Assembly (NCBI RefSeq): GCF_030053835.1
Contig: NZ_CP125655.1
Coordinates: 310,001 to 374,000 of the forward strand
Reading direction: 5' to 3'
DNA from: Cellulomonas sp. ES6
GTDB lineage: Bacteria; Actinomycetota; Actinomycetes; Actinomycetales; Cellulomonadaceae
Length of the DNA stretch: 64,000 nucleotides
Shown here piece by piece: positions 26,521-35,039 of the stretch; position 1 is the first letter of the stretch; each line of letters begins with the position of its first letter. Below the pieces are notes generated by a model. The model did no database searches. It had not been told where the DNA came from and was given only the letters and a program-made list of their open reading frames with translations. Made by a program: the position numbers and the translations under genes.

Positions 26521-27630
26521 TCAGGACGCCCGCTTGCGGCGCGTGCGGGTGGGCTTCTCCTCGGCCGGGGCCTCCTCCTGCGCCCGGGAGCGCGACCTGC
26601 CGCGCCCGCTCGGCGCCGCCTCGCCGTCCTGGGTCGCGGGCTTCTTCGCGGCCGGCTTCTTCGCCGCGGAGGCCGTCCTCCCGGAGGAGCGGCCCGACGA
26701 CGAGGCCTTGCCGCCGGACGCGGCGGGCTTGCGGGACCGCGACCGGCCCGTGGTGCCGGTCGCCTCCTCGGCGTCCGTGCCGGTGTCTGCCGCCGCGCCG
26801 TCCGTGCCGGCGTCCGCCGCCGCCCCCGCGCCCTCGCCGCGTCCCGCGCGCGCCTTCTCGACGCTGCGCTGCAGCGCGGCCAGCAGGTCGACGACCTCGC
26901 CGCTGCCGCCCTCCTCCGCGGGCTCCTCCGGCTGCGGCACGGACTGCGTGCGGCCGGCGGACACCTTCTGCTCGATGACCTCCTCGAGCGCCGCCCGGTA
27001 CCGGTCCTCGAAGCCCGACGGGTCGAAGTCCCCCGCCAGCGACTCGACGAGCGAGGACGCCATCGCCAGCTCCTGCGGCCGCACCGTCACGTCCTGGTCG
27101 AGGATCGGGAAGTCCGCCTCGCGCACCTCGTCGGGCCACAGCAGCGTCTGGAGGCAGATGACGTCGTCGCGCACCCGCAGCACCGCCATCGACTCCCGCT
27201 GCCGCAGCGCGACCTTCACCACGGCCATGCGGTCCGTGCTGGTGAGCGCCTCGCGCAGCAGCGCGTACGGCTTGGCGGCCGTGCGGTCGGGCTCCAGGTA
27301 GTACGTCTTGGCGAGCAGGATCGGGTCGACCTGCTCGGACGGCACGAACTCGAGCACCTCGATCTCGCGCTCGGTCGCGAGCGGCAGCCGGTCCAGGTCC
27401 TCGTCGGTGAGGACCACGAGCTGCCCGTCGTCGGTCTCGTACCCCTTCGCGATCTCGGAGTACTCGACCTGCTCGTCCTCGATGGAGCAGAACTTCTTGT
27501 ACCGGATGCGGCCGCCGTCCTTCTTGTGGACCTGGTGCAGCGGCACCTCGTGCTCGCCCGTCGCGGCGTAGAGCTTCACGGGCACGTTGACCAGCCCGAA
27601 CGCGACGGCGCCCTTCCAGATCGCGCGCAC
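26521..27630 (-). CDS. ku: Non-homologous end-joining protein Ku
   Basis: A 369-residue protein. It begins MRAIWKGAVAFGLVNVPVKL, the strict bacterial Ku opening, followed by VPLHQVHKKDGGRIRYKKFC and EVLEFVPSEQVDPI. The Ku core ends near residue 260. Residues 270-369 are a low-complexity tail rich in Ala, Lys, Arg and Ser (KKPAAKKPA, RSRSRKPAAS), like the DNA-binding extension of mycobacterial and Streptomyces Ku. It forms a ring dimer on DNA ends and recruits LigD. It is divergent from the ligase gene with 67 bases between. Confidence 0.95.
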   Translation of the reverse strand: MRAIWKGAVAFGLVNVPVKLYAATGEHEVPLHQVHKKDGGRIRYKKFCSIEDEQVEYSEIAKGYETDDGQLVVLTDEDLDRLPLATEREIEVLEFVPSEQVDPILLAKTYYLEPDRTAAKPYALLREALTSTDRMAVVKVALRQRESMAVLRVRDDVICLQTLLWPDEVREADFPILDQDVTVRPQELAMASSLVESLAGDFDPSGFEDRYRAALEEVIEQKVSAGRTQSVPQPEEPAEEGGSGEVVDLLAALQRSVEKARAGRGEGAGAAADAGTDGAAADTGTDAEEATGTTGRSRSRKPAASGGKASSSGRSSGRTASAAKKPAAKKPATQDGEAAPSGRGRSRSRAQEEAPAEEKPTRTRRKRAS

Positions 27631-27697
27631 GGTCGCCTCCCTCCCCGGCGCGGCGCCTCCCCGCGACGGAACGTCGTGTCCTGGGCAGGATGGACCC

Positions 27698-28639
27698 GTG
27701 CAGCCCATGCTCGCCACCCCGACGGCGGTTCCCGGCCTGCTCCCGGACGGTCCCGGGTGGCGGTTCGAGGTGAAGTGGGACGGCGTGCGCGTCCTCGCCG
27801 ACACCACCGGGGACCGCCTGCGGCTGCTCGGCCGCAACGGCCGCGACGCCACCGACGCGTACCCGGAGCTCGGGGTGCTGGCCGGCGCGCTGCCCCCGGG
27901 CACGGTGCTCGACGGGGAGGTCGTGGCCCTGCGCGACGGGGTGCCGTCGTTCCCGGCGCTGGCCGAGCGGATGCACGTGCGCGACCGCGAGCGGGCCGCC
28001 GCGCTCGCCCGCCGCGTGCCGGTGTCGTACCTGGTGTTCGACGTCCCGGTGCTGGCCGGCACGGACCTGACGGGCCGGCCCTTCACCGAGCGCCGCGCCG
28101 CCCTGGAGTCGCTCGACCTGCCCGAGCCCGCGCGCCTGTCCCCCGTCTACGAGGACGGATCCCTGCTCTGGCAGGCGACCTCGGCGCAGGGGCTCGAGGG
28201 CGTGGTCGCCAAGCGGGCGACCTCCCGCTACCAGCCCGGGCGGCGCTCGGGCGACTGGCTGAAGGCCGTGCACCACCGTACCCGCGCCGCGCTGGTCGGC
28301 GGGTGGCGACCGGAGAGCACCGGCAGCGGCCGCCTGGGGGCCCTGCTGCTCGGGGCGCCCGACGCGGACGGCGGGCTGCGGTTCCTCTGCCGGGCCGGCA
28401 GCGGCCTGAGCGGCGGGCTGGCACGCGACCTGACGGCCGCGACGGCCCTGCTCGAGCGGGACACCTCCCCCTTCGCCGAGCGGCTGGAGCCCGTCGACGC
28501 GCGCGGCAGCACCTGGGTCGAGCCGCGCGTCGTGGTCGACGTCCGCTACCTCACCCGCACACCGTCCGGCCGGTTGCGCCAGCCCGTCGTCCGCGGCCGG
28601 CGCACTGACGTCGACCCCGATCCCTGGGAGGCCCCGTGA
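27698..28639 (+). CDS. ATP-dependent DNA ligase, LigD ligase-domain type
   Basis: A 313-residue ligase. Lys26 in EVKWDGVRV is the adenylated lysine (motif I), DGEVVAL is motif III, LEGVVAKR motif IV and SGDWLKAVH motif V. The C-terminal oligonucleotide-binding domain ends in VVVDVRYLTRT. It corresponds to the ligase domain of LigD as a separate protein; no phosphoesterase domain is fused. GTG 27698 has CAGGA upstream. The next gene overlaps it by 4 bases and encodes the polymerase domain, so the two probably act together with Ku in end joining. Confidence 0.9.
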   Translation: MQPMLATPTAVPGLLPDGPGWRFEVKWDGVRVLADTTGDRLRLLGRNGRDATDAYPELGVLAGALPPGTVLDGEVVALRDGVPSFPALAERMHVRDRERAAALARRVPVSYLVFDVPVLAGTDLTGRPFTERRAALESLDLPEPARLSPVYEDGSLLWQATSAQGLEGVVAKRATSRYQPGRRSGDWLKAVHHRTRAALVGGWRPESTGSGRLGALLLGAPDADGGLRFLCRAGSGLSGGLARDLTAATALLERDTSPFAERLEPVDARGSTWVEPRVVVDVRYLTRTPSGRLRQPVVRGRRTDVDPDPWEAP

Positions 28640-29526
28640 GCCCCGCCGACCCGCCGCAGACCGTCCGCGTGGGCGACCACGACGTCCGCCTCACGCACCT
28701 CGACCGGGTGCTGTACCCGAGCACCGGGACGACCAAGGCCGAGGCCGTCGACTACGTGGTCCGCGCCGCGCCCGCGCTCCTGCGCCAGCTCGCGGACCGG
28801 CCGGTGACGCGCATCCGGTTCACGGAGGGGGTGGGCGGGGAGCGGTTCTTCGAGAAGAACACGCCCCGCGGCGCGCCGGCGTGGCTGCGTCACCAGCGGC
28901 TGCGGGCGGCCCCCGGCGCGGACGACGAGGGGACGGAGCTCGACCTGCCGTTCCTCGACGACGTCGCCGGGCTGGTGTGGGTCACGAACGGTGGCGCGCT
29001 GGAGCTGCACACCCCGCAGTGGCGGGTCGGCCCGCGCGGCGGCGTGCGCCCGCCGGACCGCCTGGTCGTCGACCTGGACCCCGGCGCTCCCGCGGGGCTC
29101 GCCGAGTGCGCGCGCGTCGCGCACCTGGTGGCGGACCGGCTGCGCGAGGACGGCCTCGGCACGACGGTCCCCGTCACGTCCGGCAGCAAGGGGATGCAGC
29201 TCTACGCCCCGCTGCCCCGCCGGCGCAGCGCGATGGAGGTCCGGCAGTACGCCCGGGACCTGGCCCACGAGCTCGCCGCCGCGCACCCGGACCTGGTGGT
29301 CGCCGTCATGCGCAAGGAGGTCCGCGGCGGTCGCGTGCTGCTGGACTGGAGCCAGAACCACCCCGCGAAGACCACCATCACCCCGTACTCGCTGCGCGGC
29401 CGGGAGCGTCCGGCGGTCGCGGCGCCCCGGTGGTGGGACGAGATCGGGCCGGACCTCACCCAGCTGACGCCGGACGAGGTGCTGCGGCGGCTGGAGGCCG
29501 ACGGGGACCCGTTCGGGACCGGCTGA
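28636..29526 (+). CDS. ligD: LigD-type DNA polymerase/primase (PolDom)
   Basis: A 296-residue archaeo-eukaryotic-type primase-polymerase. LTHLDRVLYPSTGTTKAE is the family opening. VVDLDPG holds two of the catalytic aspartates, SGSKGMQLYAPL the nucleotide-binding His/Lys region, and VLLDWSQNHPAKTTITPYS the third acidic residue and the most conserved stretch. It fills gaps and adds nucleotides at broken ends. The GTG start overlaps the ligase stop by 4 bases. In many bacteria both domains are fused; here they are split with ligase first. Confidence 0.92.
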   Translation: MSPADPPQTVRVGDHDVRLTHLDRVLYPSTGTTKAEAVDYVVRAAPALLRQLADRPVTRIRFTEGVGGERFFEKNTPRGAPAWLRHQRLRAAPGADDEGTELDLPFLDDVAGLVWVTNGGALELHTPQWRVGPRGGVRPPDRLVVDLDPGAPAGLAECARVAHLVADRLREDGLGTTVPVTSGSKGMQLYAPLPRRRSAMEVRQYARDLAHELAAAHPDLVVAVMRKEVRGGRVLLDWSQNHPAKTTITPYSLRGRERPAVAAPRWWDEIGPDLTQLTPDEVLRRLEADGDPFGTG

Positions 29527-30600: not shown

Positions 30601-31770
30601 TCACCCGCCCGACGCGAGGGCCGACACCCAGTCCGCGAGGGTGGTCCCGGTCGTGAGCACCACGAGCCAGGCGATCGCGATCTGGAGCAGCGCCGCGCCC
30701 ACGACGAGCAGGCGCCGCCGGGCCGACGGGTTCCGCGGCGCGAGCAGCAGGACCCACAGCGCCGTCAGCACGACGTACGTCTGGCCGGCCGGGGACCGCA
30801 GCCCGAGCCACAGCGACAGGTACAGGCCCACGAGCGCGATGCCCGGGGCGATCAGGGACCACGGGTCACGCAGCCCGCGGACCGTGCCGGCGACCAGCAC
30901 GAGCGGTGCCGCCAGCAGCGACAGCGCCATCTGGCGGGCGGCGGAGACCGCGGACGCGCCGACGCCGCCGGGGAACCAGCCGTCGGCGGTCGCCCGGGCG
31001 AAGCCGCCCAGCGGGTCGTCCGAGAACCACCAGGACAGGTAGAGCCAGAACAGCACCGCCGCGACGGCCGGGAACAGCAGCACCGCGACCGTCGCCGACG
31101 TGGCGCCCTGCCCCGCGCGGCCCGCGTGCCGTGCGAAGAACGGGGCCGTCGCCGCCAGCCCGAGCGCGTACAGCCAGCCGCCCGGCTCGAGCACGACGAG
31201 CACGCCCATCGCCAGGCCCGCCCGGAACCCCGCCTCCGTCGACCGCCGCTCGACGAACGACGCGATGCCGTCCAGCGCGAGGACCACCAGCGCGAGGCCC
31301 AGCAGCGACTCCAGGTCGTTCACCGCCAGGTACGCGAGCGGCGGCGTGAGGACCAGGGCCGCGACCACCGCGGCCGTCGCCCACGGACCGTGGCCCTCGC
31401 GCACCAGCACCCCGGCGAGCCGCTGCAGCGTGAAGCCGAGCACCGCGGCCGCGAACAGGCTCATCAGCAGCAGGTCGCCGCCGAGCACCGAGGCCGCCGC
31501 CGCCGACAGGGGCGGGAAGACCTCGGCCGTCCACGTCAGGGCGGCGTCGCCCCAGCGGATGAGCGCGCCCCGGGCGGCGAGCTCCTCGTTCGCGACGGCC
31601 TGCCACGGGGACGCGCCCGAGACGAGCGCGACCACGACGAACGGCGCCGCGAACGCGAGCCGCAGCAGCCAGCGCGCACCCGGGCGCGCGGGCCAGGTGT
31701 CAGGCGCCGGGAGCCGGGACGCCGTCGCCCGCGGGGTGGGCTGCGGTGCCGGTGAGACCAGTGAGGCCAT
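30601..31770 (-). CDS. Polytopic membrane protein of the glycan-synthase locus
   Basis: A 389-residue protein with about ten membrane helices and the arrangement of integral membrane glycosyltransferase-like or flippase-like proteins (Trp/Pro-rich loops such as SWWFSDDPLGGFARAT). I cannot assign a family. The ATG at 31770 lies 71 bases before the stop of the upstream glycosyltransferase, an unusually long overlap, with GGGAG 13 bases before it. The overlap indicates coupled expression, so it may help assemble or export the same polymer. Confidence 0.7.
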   Translation of the reverse strand: MASLVSPAPQPTPRATASRLPAPDTWPARPGARWLLRLAFAAPFVVVALVSGASPWQAVANEELAARGALIRWGDAALTWTAEVFPPLSAAAASVLGGDLLLMSLFAAAVLGFTLQRLAGVLVREGHGPWATAAVVAALVLTPPLAYLAVNDLESLLGLALVVLALDGIASFVERRSTEAGFRAGLAMGVLVVLEPGGWLYALGLAATAPFFARHAGRAGQGATSATVAVLLFPAVAAVLFWLYLSWWFSDDPLGGFARATADGWFPGGVGASAVSAARQMALSLLAAPLVLVAGTVRGLRDPWSLIAPGIALVGLYLSLWLGLRSPAGQTYVVLTALWVLLLAPRNPSARRRLLVVGAALLQIAIAWLVVLTTGTTLADWVSALASGG

Positions 31771-33589
31771 GTGCGGTCTTCTCCCAGTAGTGCGGTCTCG
31801 TGACGAGCTGCCACAGCGCCTTGTACGCGGCGACCGCGTGGAGCAGCCAGTAGACGGGGTTCGCCAGGCCCCAGAGCACCAGCCGGTACCGGCGGCGCTT
31901 GAACGCGCCCATCATCGACACGTAGATCATCAGGGCGCTGCCGACACCGAGGTTGGCGAGCGAGAGCCACAGCACCCACCCCGGGAACAGGGCGGCGAGG
32001 GCCGCCGGGTCGACCAGCAGGGACGCCACGAACACGGCGTACAGCGGCGGGACCGCCAGGAACGTCGCCGGCGTGCCGCCCACGAGGAACAGGAACGACA
32101 GCGCCTGCCGCGGCCCCGCGACCCGCAGCAGCCGCAGCGGGTCGCGCAGGTGCACGAGGGTCGTCTGCATGTACCCCTTGATCCACCGGGAGCGCTGCCG
32201 CACGAAGTTGGGGTACGAGGTGTTGGCCTCCTCGAACGTGGTCGAGTCGATCACCCCGACGCGCAGCCCCTCGGCCGCGGCGCGGATGCCCAGGTCGGCG
32301 TCCTCCGTGACGTTGAACGGGTCCCAGCCGCCGAGCCGCCGCAGGCCGCCGACCCGGAAGTGGTTCGACGTGCCGCCGAGCGGGATCGCGAACCGGTTGG
32401 CCTCCAGCCCGGGCAGCATGTAGTCGAACCAGAACGAGTACTCGAGCGTGAACATCCGCGTGAGCGCGTTCTCCTCGGCGTTGAAGTAGTTCAGCGCCGC
32501 CTGCACGCACACGAGGTCGTCCCCCGCGTCCCGGAACGCGAGGACGGCCTTCTTGAGCTGGTCCGGCTCGGGGCGGTCCTCGGCGTCGAAGATCACCAGG
32601 TACTCCCCCGTGGCGAACTCGAGGCCGACGTTGCAGGCCTTGGGCTTGGTCTGCGGCTGCCCGGCCGGGACGGTCACGAACCGGAAGTGCGGGGGCGGCG
32701 AGGCGGCCTCGGCCGCGGCGCGGGTCTCCAGGTCGTCCTCCTCGACCAGCACGATCACCTCGAGCAGGTGGGTCGGGTAGTCGAGCGCGCCGAGGTTGCC
32801 GATGAGCTGGGCGACGATGTTCGCCTCGCGGTACACGGGCACGAGCACCGTGTACCGGGGCAGCTCGTGGTCGGTCAGCGCGGCCAGCGCCGCCGGCGGG
32901 GTCCGCAGCACGTGCTCCATGCGGGCGCCGCGCAGCGACGACCAGAACTTGAAGCCGGTGCCGAGCAGGAACGACAGGCCGACGAGCAGCGACAGCCCGA
33001 CCACCAGCGCGGCGGGTGCCAGGACCGCGGCGGTGACGGACGCGAGCGCGAGGACCACCAGCGCCACGCGCTGCCAGGGCACCAGGACCGTGCGCGCGGA
33101 CTGCGCCGGCGACCGGCCCCACAGCCCGAGGCTCGCCCGCTCCCGCAGCTCCGCGCCGTACCGGTCGAGCACCGCCTGCTGGAACTCCCAGCGGTCGGCG
33201 AGCACGAGGAACGGGTCCTGCCCGACGGCGGCGGTGATGCGGGCCCGCAGCTCCGGGGTGGGCTCGTCGGTGACCGCGACCACCGGGACGCCGTCCGCGC
33301 GCTGCTCCAGCGGCAGCCAGCCCTCGGCCAGCACGGTGCCGACGTCGAGGCCCGGCACGTCCAGCGCGGCCGCCGTGCGCGTCGCGGCGACGTACGGCAG
33401 CCCCCACAGGTCGGCGAGGGCACGCGTCAGCGAGACGGAGTCGAGGGCGCCGATCGCCACGAGGACCTCGCCGATGCGCGCGCCGCTGCCCGCCGCGACC
33501 TCCTGCGCCGCGTCCAGCGTCGCCGTGGTCACGAGCCCTCGGTCGACGAGGTGGTCCCCGACCCGCCGGTCCTGCTCGTGCCGCCCCAC
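31700..33589 (-). CDS. Family 2 processive glycosyltransferase with N-terminal MshEN-type domain
   Basis: A 629-residue membrane enzyme. Residues 8-63 contain two copies, 29 residues apart, of the pattern R-hydrophobic-G-xx-LV-xx-G (RRVGDHLVDRG and ARIGEVLVAIG), as in MshEN/T2SSE N-terminal domains that bind cyclic-di-GMP. Helices follow near 170-210. The GT2 domain (about 245-480) has DAED at 335-338, TED at 428-430 and QRSRW at 465-469, the motifs of cellulose-synthase-like enzymes, and four or five helices end the protein. It probably makes and secretes a beta-linked polysaccharide. GTG 33589 has a purine run (GGGGGG) upstream. Confidence 0.88.
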   Translation of the reverse strand: MGRHEQDRRVGDHLVDRGLVTTATLDAAQEVAAGSGARIGEVLVAIGALDSVSLTRALADLWGLPYVAATRTAAALDVPGLDVGTVLAEGWLPLEQRADGVPVVAVTDEPTPELRARITAAVGQDPFLVLADRWEFQQAVLDRYGAELRERASLGLWGRSPAQSARTVLVPWQRVALVVLALASVTAAVLAPAALVVGLSLLVGLSFLLGTGFKFWSSLRGARMEHVLRTPPAALAALTDHELPRYTVLVPVYREANIVAQLIGNLGALDYPTHLLEVIVLVEEDDLETRAAAEAASPPPHFRFVTVPAGQPQTKPKACNVGLEFATGEYLVIFDAEDRPEPDQLKKAVLAFRDAGDDLVCVQAALNYFNAEENALTRMFTLEYSFWFDYMLPGLEANRFAIPLGGTSNHFRVGGLRRLGGWDPFNVTEDADLGIRAAAEGLRVGVIDSTTFEEANTSYPNFVRQRSRWIKGYMQTTLVHLRDPLRLLRVAGPRQALSFLFLVGGTPATFLAVPPLYAVFVASLLVDPAALAALFPGWVLWLSLANLGVGSALMIYVSMMGAFKRRRYRLVLWGLANPVYWLLHAVAAYKALWQLVTRPHYWEKTAHGLTGLTGTAAHPAGDGVPAPGA

Positions 33590-33752
33590 GCGTACCCCCC
33601 GTCCGGATCGGGTCAGGCTACCGACGCCCCCGGCGCGTCGCGCGGCGGGGCGGCGCCACCCGGGACCGGGGCGGGACGGCGCGGGCGAACCAGCGGCGGG
33701 CGGATCGTCGCGGACGGTTCAGGTGGTGCCGGGTCCGGCCGATGAGCAGGAC

Positions 33753-35039
33753 GTGACCCTCCTGTGCCCGTCGGACCTGCGGGGGCGCGTGCCGGTGCCC
33801 GACCTGCTCCGCACCGGGGGCGTGCACTGCGCGTACCAGCCCGTCGTCGAGCTCGCGACCGGCGAGGTGGTCGGCCGTGAGGCCCTGCTGCGCACCCCGG
33901 AGGGCTCCGGCTGGGGCTCGCCGCTGGAGGTCCTCGACGCCGCCCAGGAGGAGGGGCTGCTCGGCGAGCTGGAGCGGGCGTCGATGTCGCGGGCGCTGGC
34001 GGACGCCGCCGAGGCCTCGCGCGGTGCCGGCCACACGCTGTTCCTCAACATCGAGCCGCGCACGCTGTCGCGTCACATCGGCCTCGTGCTCGAGACGCTC
34101 GCCCGGCGGGACCCGCACGTCCGCGTGGTCGTGGAGATCACCGAGCGCGCCCTCGCGCACGACCCGGCCGGCATCCTCGACGCGGCCGCGCGGCTCCGGG
34201 AGGCCGGGTGCGCGATCGCCCTCGACGACGTGGGTGCCGTGCCCGACTCGCTCGCGTTCCTGCCGCTGCTGGCGCCCGAGGTGATCAAGCTCGACCTCCA
34301 GCTGCTCCGCACGCTGGAGGACCCGGCGACCATCACGGTCGCGGGCGCGGTGCGCGCCCGGGCCGAGGCCACCGGGGCGCGGGTCGTCGCCGAGGGCATC
34401 GAGACGCACGACGACCTCACCCGGGCGCTGGTGCTCGGCGCGGACCTGGGTCAGGGCTGGTACCTGGGGCGGCCGCACCGCGTGCTGCCCGCCGGGGAGC
34501 GGCACACCGTCCGGCTGCACCGCGCGCCGGAGCCGCCGGAGGGCGACGCGACGCCCTACGAGCTGGTGGCCTCCCGCCGCGCGGTGCGGCTGGCGCCGAA
34601 GCACCTGCTGCTGCCGCTGTCGCGCACGCTCGAGACGGCGGCGCTGGCGCAGCGGGTCCCGCCGCTGCTGCTCGGGACCTTCCAGGACGAGCGGCACTTC
34701 ACCGGCGGCTCCGCGGTGCGGTACGGGCACCTGGCCGAGCGGCTGCCGTTCGTCGGGGCGCTCGGCACCGGGGCGCCGGCGTCGGTGCCCGGCGGCGTGC
34801 GCTGGGCCCGCGTCGAACCGGACGAGGCGCTCGCCCGCGAGTGGGCGGTCGTCGTGCTCGGCGCGCACGAGTCGGTCGCCCTCGTCGGCCGCGAGGTGGG
34901 GCCGCCCTCCAGCGCGCCCGCCGGCTCGCGCGAGGACAGGTCCCGCCAGTTCGAGTTCGCGGTGACGCACGACCACGCGTTGGTGGCGCAGTCGGCGCAC
35001 GCGCTGCTGCGCCGGTTCGGGGCCGACGGCCGCGACTGA
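33753..35039 (+). CDS. EAL-domain cyclic-di-GMP phosphodiesterase with C-terminal DICT domain
   Basis: A 428-residue cytosolic protein. The EAL domain (about 12-245) is intact: EALLR at 43-47, LNIEP, EITERAL, IALDDVG, VIKLDL, VVAEGIE and GQGWYLGRP, covering the metal ligands and catalytic Glu/Lys. From about 275 a DICT sensory domain follows (LLPLSRTLETAALAQ, LGTFQDERHFTGGSAVRY), as found with diguanylate-cyclase networks. It should degrade cyclic-di-GMP under control of an unknown signal. It is divergent from the MshEN glycosyltransferase. Starts at 33723 or 33726 are possible. Confidence 0.88.
   Translation: MTLLCPSDLRGRVPVPDLLRTGGVHCAYQPVVELATGEVVGREALLRTPEGSGWGSPLEVLDAAQEEGLLGELERASMSRALADAAEASRGAGHTLFLNIEPRTLSRHIGLVLETLARRDPHVRVVVEITERALAHDPAGILDAAARLREAGCAIALDDVGAVPDSLAFLPLLAPEVIKLDLQLLRTLEDPATITVAGAVRARAEATGARVVAEGIETHDDLTRALVLGADLGQGWYLGRPHRVLPAGERHTVRLHRAPEPPEGDATPYELVASRRAVRLAPKHLLLPLSRTLETAALAQRVPPLLLGTFQDERHFTGGSAVRYGHLAERLPFVGALGTGAPASVPGGVRWARVEPDEALAREWAVVVLGAHESVALVGREVGPPSSAPAGSREDRSRQFEFAVTHDHALVAQSAHALLRRFGADGRD

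Follow-up and report, generated by a model that had tools for sequence, protein, structure and literature searches.

An MshEN-derived domain on a BcsA-like glycosyltransferase of Cellulomonas sp. ES6, its GT-C-fold partner and a divergent EAL-DICT gene

Does a polysaccharide synthase of Cellulomonas sp. ES6 sense cyclic di-GMP (c-di-GMP) through a domain at its own N-terminus, and does the phosphodiesterase-like gene beside it belong to the same system? These questions arise from a 64,000-nucleotide stretch of the genome (the window; contig NZ_CP125655.1, genome positions 310001–374000), in which a family 2 glycosyltransferase (GT2) gene overlaps that of a polytopic membrane protein and diverges from a gene for a protein with EAL and DICT domains (EAL-DICT). 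A sequence-only reading had seen here an undescribed control scheme, a synthase fused directly to an MshEN-type c-di-GMP receptor next to its own phosphodiesterase. Searching the window and the 4.12-Mb genome, we find that an MshEN-derived domain on a BcsA-like GT2 is borne out, and we favour, at about even confidence, a reading in which the locus encodes an XagB/Sfz2-like synthase with a GT-C-fold partner and a weakened c-di-GMP input, its divergent EAL-DICT neighbour being under separate regulation.

The N domain, the synthase core and the membrane partner

Two R-x-G-xx-LV-xx-G motifs had been reported at the GT2 N-terminus, and both are present: motif I reads R9-V-G-D-H-L-V-D-R-G18 and motif II R38-I-G-E-V-L-V-A-I-G47, with 29 residues from R9 to R38. 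The likeness to MshEN goes beyond chance. NCBIfam NF053729 (MshE-related c-di-GMP motif) matched the protein with E 1.9e-8 (33.9 bits versus a cut-off of 38) and, in a six-frame genome search, barely passed that cut-off at the GT2 (38.6 bits), while Pfam PF05157 gave no match on the GT2 up to E 1. As a single sequence the N domain matched PilF (6f8l, E 1.7e-8) and MshE (5htl, E 2.6e-6), and a profile of 91 homologues matched the structures over residues ~6–150 (PilF, 3.8e-32; PilB, 1.1e-15; MshE, 6.7e-12). Residues 1–145 were confidently modelled; fold searches with the whole GT2 (Foldseek, VIA-align) returned the synthase part only. Judged by sequence homology, the N domain is thus MshEN-derived.

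The motifs D335-A-E-D338, T428-E-D430 and Q465-R-S-R-W469 are invariant in our alignment of relatives (A2), and the GT2 structure model (predicted local distance difference test score, 91.4) matched the BcsA/HAS-like synthase fold. With an acidic motif, TED, QxxRW and the synthase fold all in place, the GT2 is of the processive BcsA/HAS-like type. BcsA cellulose synthase carries a PilZ sensor, whereas a Pfam scan of the GT2 up to E 1 found no PilZ domain, and PilZ control of the synthase was rejected on that ground.

The membrane protein, whose reading frame shares 71 bases with that of the GT2 (31700–31770) as had been claimed, has a GT-C fold and fell into no Pfam or NCBIfam family above cut-off. 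GT-C glycosyltransferases usually have a conserved Asp or Glu in the first external loop. In the alignment of the membrane protein, Asp or Glu fills at most 26 of the 55 rows in any column within residues 52–91, and residue 61 is Asn in 50 of them; an acid-rich column lies elsewhere (column 259, 44/55). The GT2 and the membrane protein form a lasting pair across relatives, the latter being the sole constant partner of the GT2 at the loci compared (88 loci, with flanks of up to 8 kb, shorter at contig ends). A metagenome-assembled genome (MAG) of an uncultured Schumannella has two such pairs in tandem (L039, 8001–14137). Upstream of the GT2, a single TAnnnT lies 25–37 nt away in 9/9 EAL-linked loci; L031 has none.

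An N-terminal EpsE/MshEN-type domain followed by a GT2 is the XagB/Sfz2-like architecture. Sfz2, from a Zetaproteobacteria stalk cluster, is predicted to have an N-terminal EpsE-like domain before its GT2, the order seen in the window, as compared by description (PMC8250860). Scoring the 7997 candidates with the most words in common gave 7959 GT2 homologues; among the 120 listed, Pfam MshEN is present in 86 and the JGI name 'glycosyltransferase XagB' on eight. XagB and Sfz2 belong to Gram-negative clusters, those of Zetaproteobacteria adding a BcsB-like protein and further genes, whereas the GT-C-fold protein alone is constant here. The fusion is therefore not undescribed as a type: besides Sfz2 (PMC8250860), MshEN joined to glycosyltransferases had been pointed out in 2016 (PMC5013675), and one such fusion was shown for Escherichia coli NfrB in 2021 (PMC8669469, PMC8669472). 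NfrB, the synthase of the phage N4 glycan receptor, likewise joins a GT2 with DxD, TED and QxxRW to an MshEN domain, for which c-di-GMP binding and control were demonstrated (PMC8669469, PMC8669472). It differs in having the MshEN domain at its C-terminus, NfrA and YbcH as partners in an outer-membrane system instead of a GT-C-fold protein, a local diguanylate cyclase (DgcJ) instead of a neighbouring predicted phosphodiesterase, and a motif described as fully conserved where the window pocket has three replacements. The NfrB model NF008411 scored 15.7 on the window GT2, against a cut-off of 1170.

Pocket residues in the window and its relatives

Residue numbering of the N domain coincides with that of Vibrio cholerae MshE. 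Relative to the published MshEN motif, the GT2 keeps R9, G11, G18, L25, R38, G40, G47, L54 and L58 and has V10 and I39, while one pocket Leu and two conserved Gln are replaced (L29 by Q, Q32 by A, Q61 by L). The c-di-GMP pocket that the sequence-only reading counted on is hence kept in its glycines, both arginines and most leucines, and the complete tandem RLGxx(L/V/I)(L/V/I)xxG...LxxxLxxQ pattern is not. In MshE, loss of any one conserved hydrophobic residue costs more than 10-fold in affinity, and XpsE, a natural non-binder of c-di-GMP, carries eight changes including L29R and Q61V (PMC5013675). Set against these data, the residues kept and lost point to a site that is damaged, not obliterated; with L29, Q32 and Q61 gone in this lineage, direct c-di-GMP control is therefore probably weak or absent.

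The same positions vary among relatives. In the 13 Cellulomonas-like rows of alignment A2, neither Q32 nor Q61 occurs, residue 29 is hydrophobic in two and R38 is kept in seven, position 38 being Y or Q in Cellulomonas-type loci of other species (L025–L032, L106). Seven rows at 60–72% identity have Q32 in 0/7 and Q61 in 6/7, and the 68 rows below 60% identity have Q32 in 49, a hydrophobic residue 29 in 59, R9 in 27 and Q61 in 10. Conservation of the Gly and Leu positions that contact guanine is far higher in Cellulomonas-like rows than in Microbacteriaceae.

These losses were placed on a 79-row tree of the catalytic region, built with the top 80 of 359 hits in genomes plus a family search and without 10 loci that were copies or fragments. 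A site was scored as kept if it had Q32, a hydrophobic residue 29 and at least 11 of 13 canonical positions, with Q61 unscored. The supported 54-row clade that includes the window has no kept site, 11 partial and 20 lost sites, and 23 rows without the motif-bearing N-terminal part; the 25 rows outside it comprise 20 kept, three partial and two lost. By title the clade is almost wholly Micrococcales (exceptions by label, L069 and L056), and a Phycicoccus locus (L049), Micrococcales too, falls outside. Absence of the motif-bearing part requires seven changes on the tree, at least four of them forced by supported branches. Two labels sit oddly on this tree: an 'Acidobacteria' MAG contig (L056) groups within Microbacteriaceae and a 'Cellulosimicrobium cellulans' contig (L027) within Cellulomonas, through mis-binning, mislabelling or transfer.

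Across 50 tree genomes, several of them MAGs and with kinship ignored, at least one GGDEF gene was present in 13/14 genomes with a kept site, 9/9 with a partial, 6/13 with a lost and 4/14 with an absent one. Eight Cellulomonas-type genomes have 7–16 cyclases each, and the ES6 genome gave 13 GGDEF and 10 EAL matches. By these counts, the Cellulomonas-type genomes stand out in combining many cyclases with an eroded site.

The EAL-DICT gene and its upstream element

Among 81 genomes of the genus, a full-length GT2 occurs in 14 and EAL-DICT in 13, with both adjacent in 12. Two genomes have the GT2 without EAL-DICT (G071, G252) and one has EAL-DICT without the GT2 (G109), there between Dps-like and aminotransferase-like genes in a 12-kb stretch where no GT2 or membrane protein gene was found; in G102 and G115, the GT2 lacks about its first 80 residues and has no EAL-DICT beside it. 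Among the 88 loci, those outside the Cellulomonas group showed no adjacent EAL-DICT; one of them (L065) has a 30%-identical EAL protein about 4 kb from the GT2. Co-occurrence of the three genes thus holds for the GT2 and membrane protein and, in 12/81 genomes, for an adjoining EAL-DICT; the three genes as one conserved unit were rejected.

EAL phosphodiesterases share the catalytic set EAL, N, E, DD, K, E, Q, and an important loop, canonically DDFG(T/A)G, follows the Asp pair. All the catalytic residues are present in the window protein, so that the earlier assertion of complete catalytic motifs stands for the residues; it does not for the loop, which reads DDVGAVPDSL. DDVG(A/V)VP(D/E/A)SL was found in 13/13 EAL-DICT orthologues and DDFG in 8/12 other EAL proteins of the genus that were compared. 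Because the loop has diverged in all 13 orthologues, phosphodiesterase activity is uncertain.

In the 163-base gap between the divergent genes, the longest stretches without any change in an alignment of nine loci, coding ends aside, are TTCA and GCCGATG, at a constant distance of 16 bases. In 12/13 genomes with EAL-DICT, exactly 9 nt separate TTCA-N16-GCCGAT from the GTG; G109 reads CTCA. The pattern TCA-N16-GCCGATG occurs 26 times in the ES6 genome. Besides EAL-DICT, it lies upstream (within 150 nt, a limit set after the hits were seen) or at the start of 4/16 other c-di-GMP genes (0.007 expected, P 9e-11), namely one GGDEF, two GGDEF-EAL and one PAS-GGDEF gene (G000 16102, 1163852, 2393536 and 3802734; L157, L160, L169 and L180), and three of these four elements read GCCGATGACAC. 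The named hits are five c-di-GMP genes, fliM and a VanY peptidase gene; one more, at 1642783, is unassigned, and the remaining 18, unannotated, may be chance. A reversed-pattern control, with 5 hits versus 26 in this genome and variable results across the 81 genomes, was set aside as unfair because GCCGATGA is likely frequent in coding DNA here, and the case for a promoter rests on where the hits lie and on how the element is conserved at EAL-DICT.

The genome has a gene for a FliA_WhiG sigma factor at 3917646 (269.9 bits against a cut-off of 189.6). FliA/WhiG promoters have been defined by TAAA-N15-GCCGATAA within two mismatches together with a mapped start (PMC8325347), and relatives with TTCAA and GCCGATGA show two mismatches. 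In Rubrobacter radiotolerans, five of 12 mapped WhiG-type promoters precede c-di-GMP turnover genes (PMC8325347), a likeness to the ES6 genome, where such promoters are predicted from sequence. EAL-DICT would be read from a FliA/WhiG-type promoter. Being confined, among the 88 loci, to those of Cellulomonas type, separable in three genomes of the genus and preceded by an element shared with other genes, it can hardly be called the synthase's own phosphodiesterase; it is probably a separable neighbour of the synthase pair that looks like part of a motility-type regulon. A literature search made mostly without subscription papers found no description of an actinobacterial MshEN-GT2, of the GT-C-fold partner or of a FliA/WhiG-type set in Cellulomonas.

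The element, again as GCCGATGACAC, also precedes a 626-residue open reading frame (L162; G000 1642783, minus strand), possibly a further regulon member, in which Pfam recognized no family. Apart from that of the GT2, a single MshEN domain was found in the genome (G000 213163–213582), with a strong motif score of 60.1 bits; it lies in a 596-residue open frame that resembles a PilB-type ATPase, and TCA-N17-GCCGAT begins 84 nt before the domain.

Competing readings and the layout of the locus

In the reading we favour, the GT2 and the GT-C-fold protein would be two subunits of a surface-polysaccharide synthase of the XagB/Sfz2-like kind: the GT2 would polymerise sugar from an activated donor and move the polymer through its own membrane helices, with help from the GT-C-fold protein, either as a partner or as a second transferase. 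The ancestor of the N domain would be an MshEN receptor by which the enzyme is, or formerly was, gated, and EAL-DICT, expressed from a flagellar-clade promoter with some other turnover genes, would have the general c-di-GMP pool as its target. Several observations weigh against it. The window keeps 11/13 scored positions (all but 29 and 32), Arg9 included, and the MshEN glycines are conserved in 13/13 Cellulomonas-like rows; Q61 is scarce in relatives generally (10/68, and 5/15 where the other 13 positions are all canonical), and the kept class is lenient, 10/20 of its rows lacking R9 and only 7/20 having all 13 positions. In MshE, changes of R9 or Q32 cost at most about fivefold (PMC5013675); in NfrB, phage infection was unaffected by most of the single site changes examined (PMC8669472), L490A had a moderate effect and a glycine change was the most sensitive (PMC8669469). 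As for the promoter, no site of this kind precedes 12/16 other turnover genes, and by hand count three bases of the window element do not fit TAAA-N15-GCCGATAA.

With the glycines, Arg9, Arg38 and most hydrophobic contacts kept, and with most single NfrB changes tolerated (PMC8669472) and that of a glycine the worst (PMC8669469), a working, perhaps weaker, switch deserves a hearing. The N domain would still bind c-di-GMP and switch the synthase, with EAL-DICT as local phosphodiesterase, giving an actinobacterial counterpart of NfrB/DgcJ in a genome rich in GGDEF and EAL domains. EAL-DICT does lie beside the GT2 in 12/14 genus genomes with a full-length GT2 (Fisher P 1.6e-11, kinship ignored). 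Nonetheless, the three replacements, Y or Q at position 38 in L025–L032 and L106, the separability of EAL-DICT within the Cellulomonas group, its absence beside the GT2 at the loci outside, the shared upstream element and the diverged EAL loop leave this a tentative prospect. That the N domain is now purely structural, a protein-docking surface or a receptor for another ligand, the synthase being constitutive or controlled by transcription only, strikes us as improbable: the motif-bearing part is absent or the site lost in 43/54 clade rows where the GT2 core persists, and EAL-linked loci share the single candidate −10 noted above, but the guanine-contacting Gly and Leu are far better kept in Cellulomonas-like rows than in Microbacteriaceae.

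An extension of the favoured reading, rather unlikely when taken as a whole, has most of Micrococcales part-way through releasing the synthase from direct gating by c-di-GMP. The site may form a series, largely kept outside, half-eroded in Cellulomonas and lost or deleted in Microbacteriaceae and kin; in Cellulomonas, control would have been re-attached through a flagellar-clade sigma regulon driving EAL-DICT and other turnover genes, and the GT-C-fold protein, in which the usual catalytic acid is missing, would serve the synthase as an obligatory subunit of an undescribed kind.

If the favoured reading is right, kept, eroded and absent c-di-GMP sensors are available as a natural series, making MshEN gating testable through orthologues instead of mutants. 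Attention would be drawn to a little-studied GT2/GT-C-fold pair of Actinobacteria and Chloroflexota, and Cellulomonas would be predicted to have a set of c-di-GMP turnover genes of FliA/WhiG type, extending the Rubrobacter map.

Table 1. Features of the locus, in window coordinates.
Feature	Position	Strand	Remarks
GT2 synthase, 629 aa, GTG start	31700..33589	-	MshEN-type N domain, membrane helices, BcsA-like GT2 core
MshEN-type N domain of GT2, residues 1-145	33155..33589	-	sequence/profile homology
Tandem 24+5+24-residue c-di-GMP motif region, residues 9-61, with L29Q, Q32A, Q61L	33407..33565	-	
GT2 catalytic region, residues 244-472	32174..32860	-	Pfam Glyco_tranf_2_3
GT-C-fold polytopic membrane protein, 389 aa	30601..31770	-	overlaps GT2
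EAL-DICT protein, 428 aa, likely GTG start at 33753	33753..35039	+	
EAL domain, residues 17-241	33801..34475	+	Pfam E 4.2e-43
DICT domain, residues 282-381	34596..34895	+	Pfam E 3.3e-9
TTCA-N16-GCCGAT, FliA/WhiG-like putative promoter element	33718..33743	+	ends 9 nt before EAL-DICT GTG; start probably leaderless
TAGCCT, candidate housekeeping -10 of GT2 (weak)	33615..33620	-	sole TAnnnT in 75 nt before GT2 start

Rfam and tRNA scans over the window gave no match. The nearest named proteins and contigs for the locus are mostly from Cellulomonas, and several flanking genes are syntenic across Cellulomonas-type loci. Named by eye, nearby genes are presumably those for Ku, LigD, a Dps-like protein (ferritin-like by Pfam), an aminotransferase-like and a phosphotransferase-like protein, a neighbourhood that suggests no polysaccharide operon. 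At 26521–29526, LigD-like functions, likewise named by eye, occupy two adjacent reading frames, ligase-like and then polymerase-like, with a Ku-like gene on the opposite strand.
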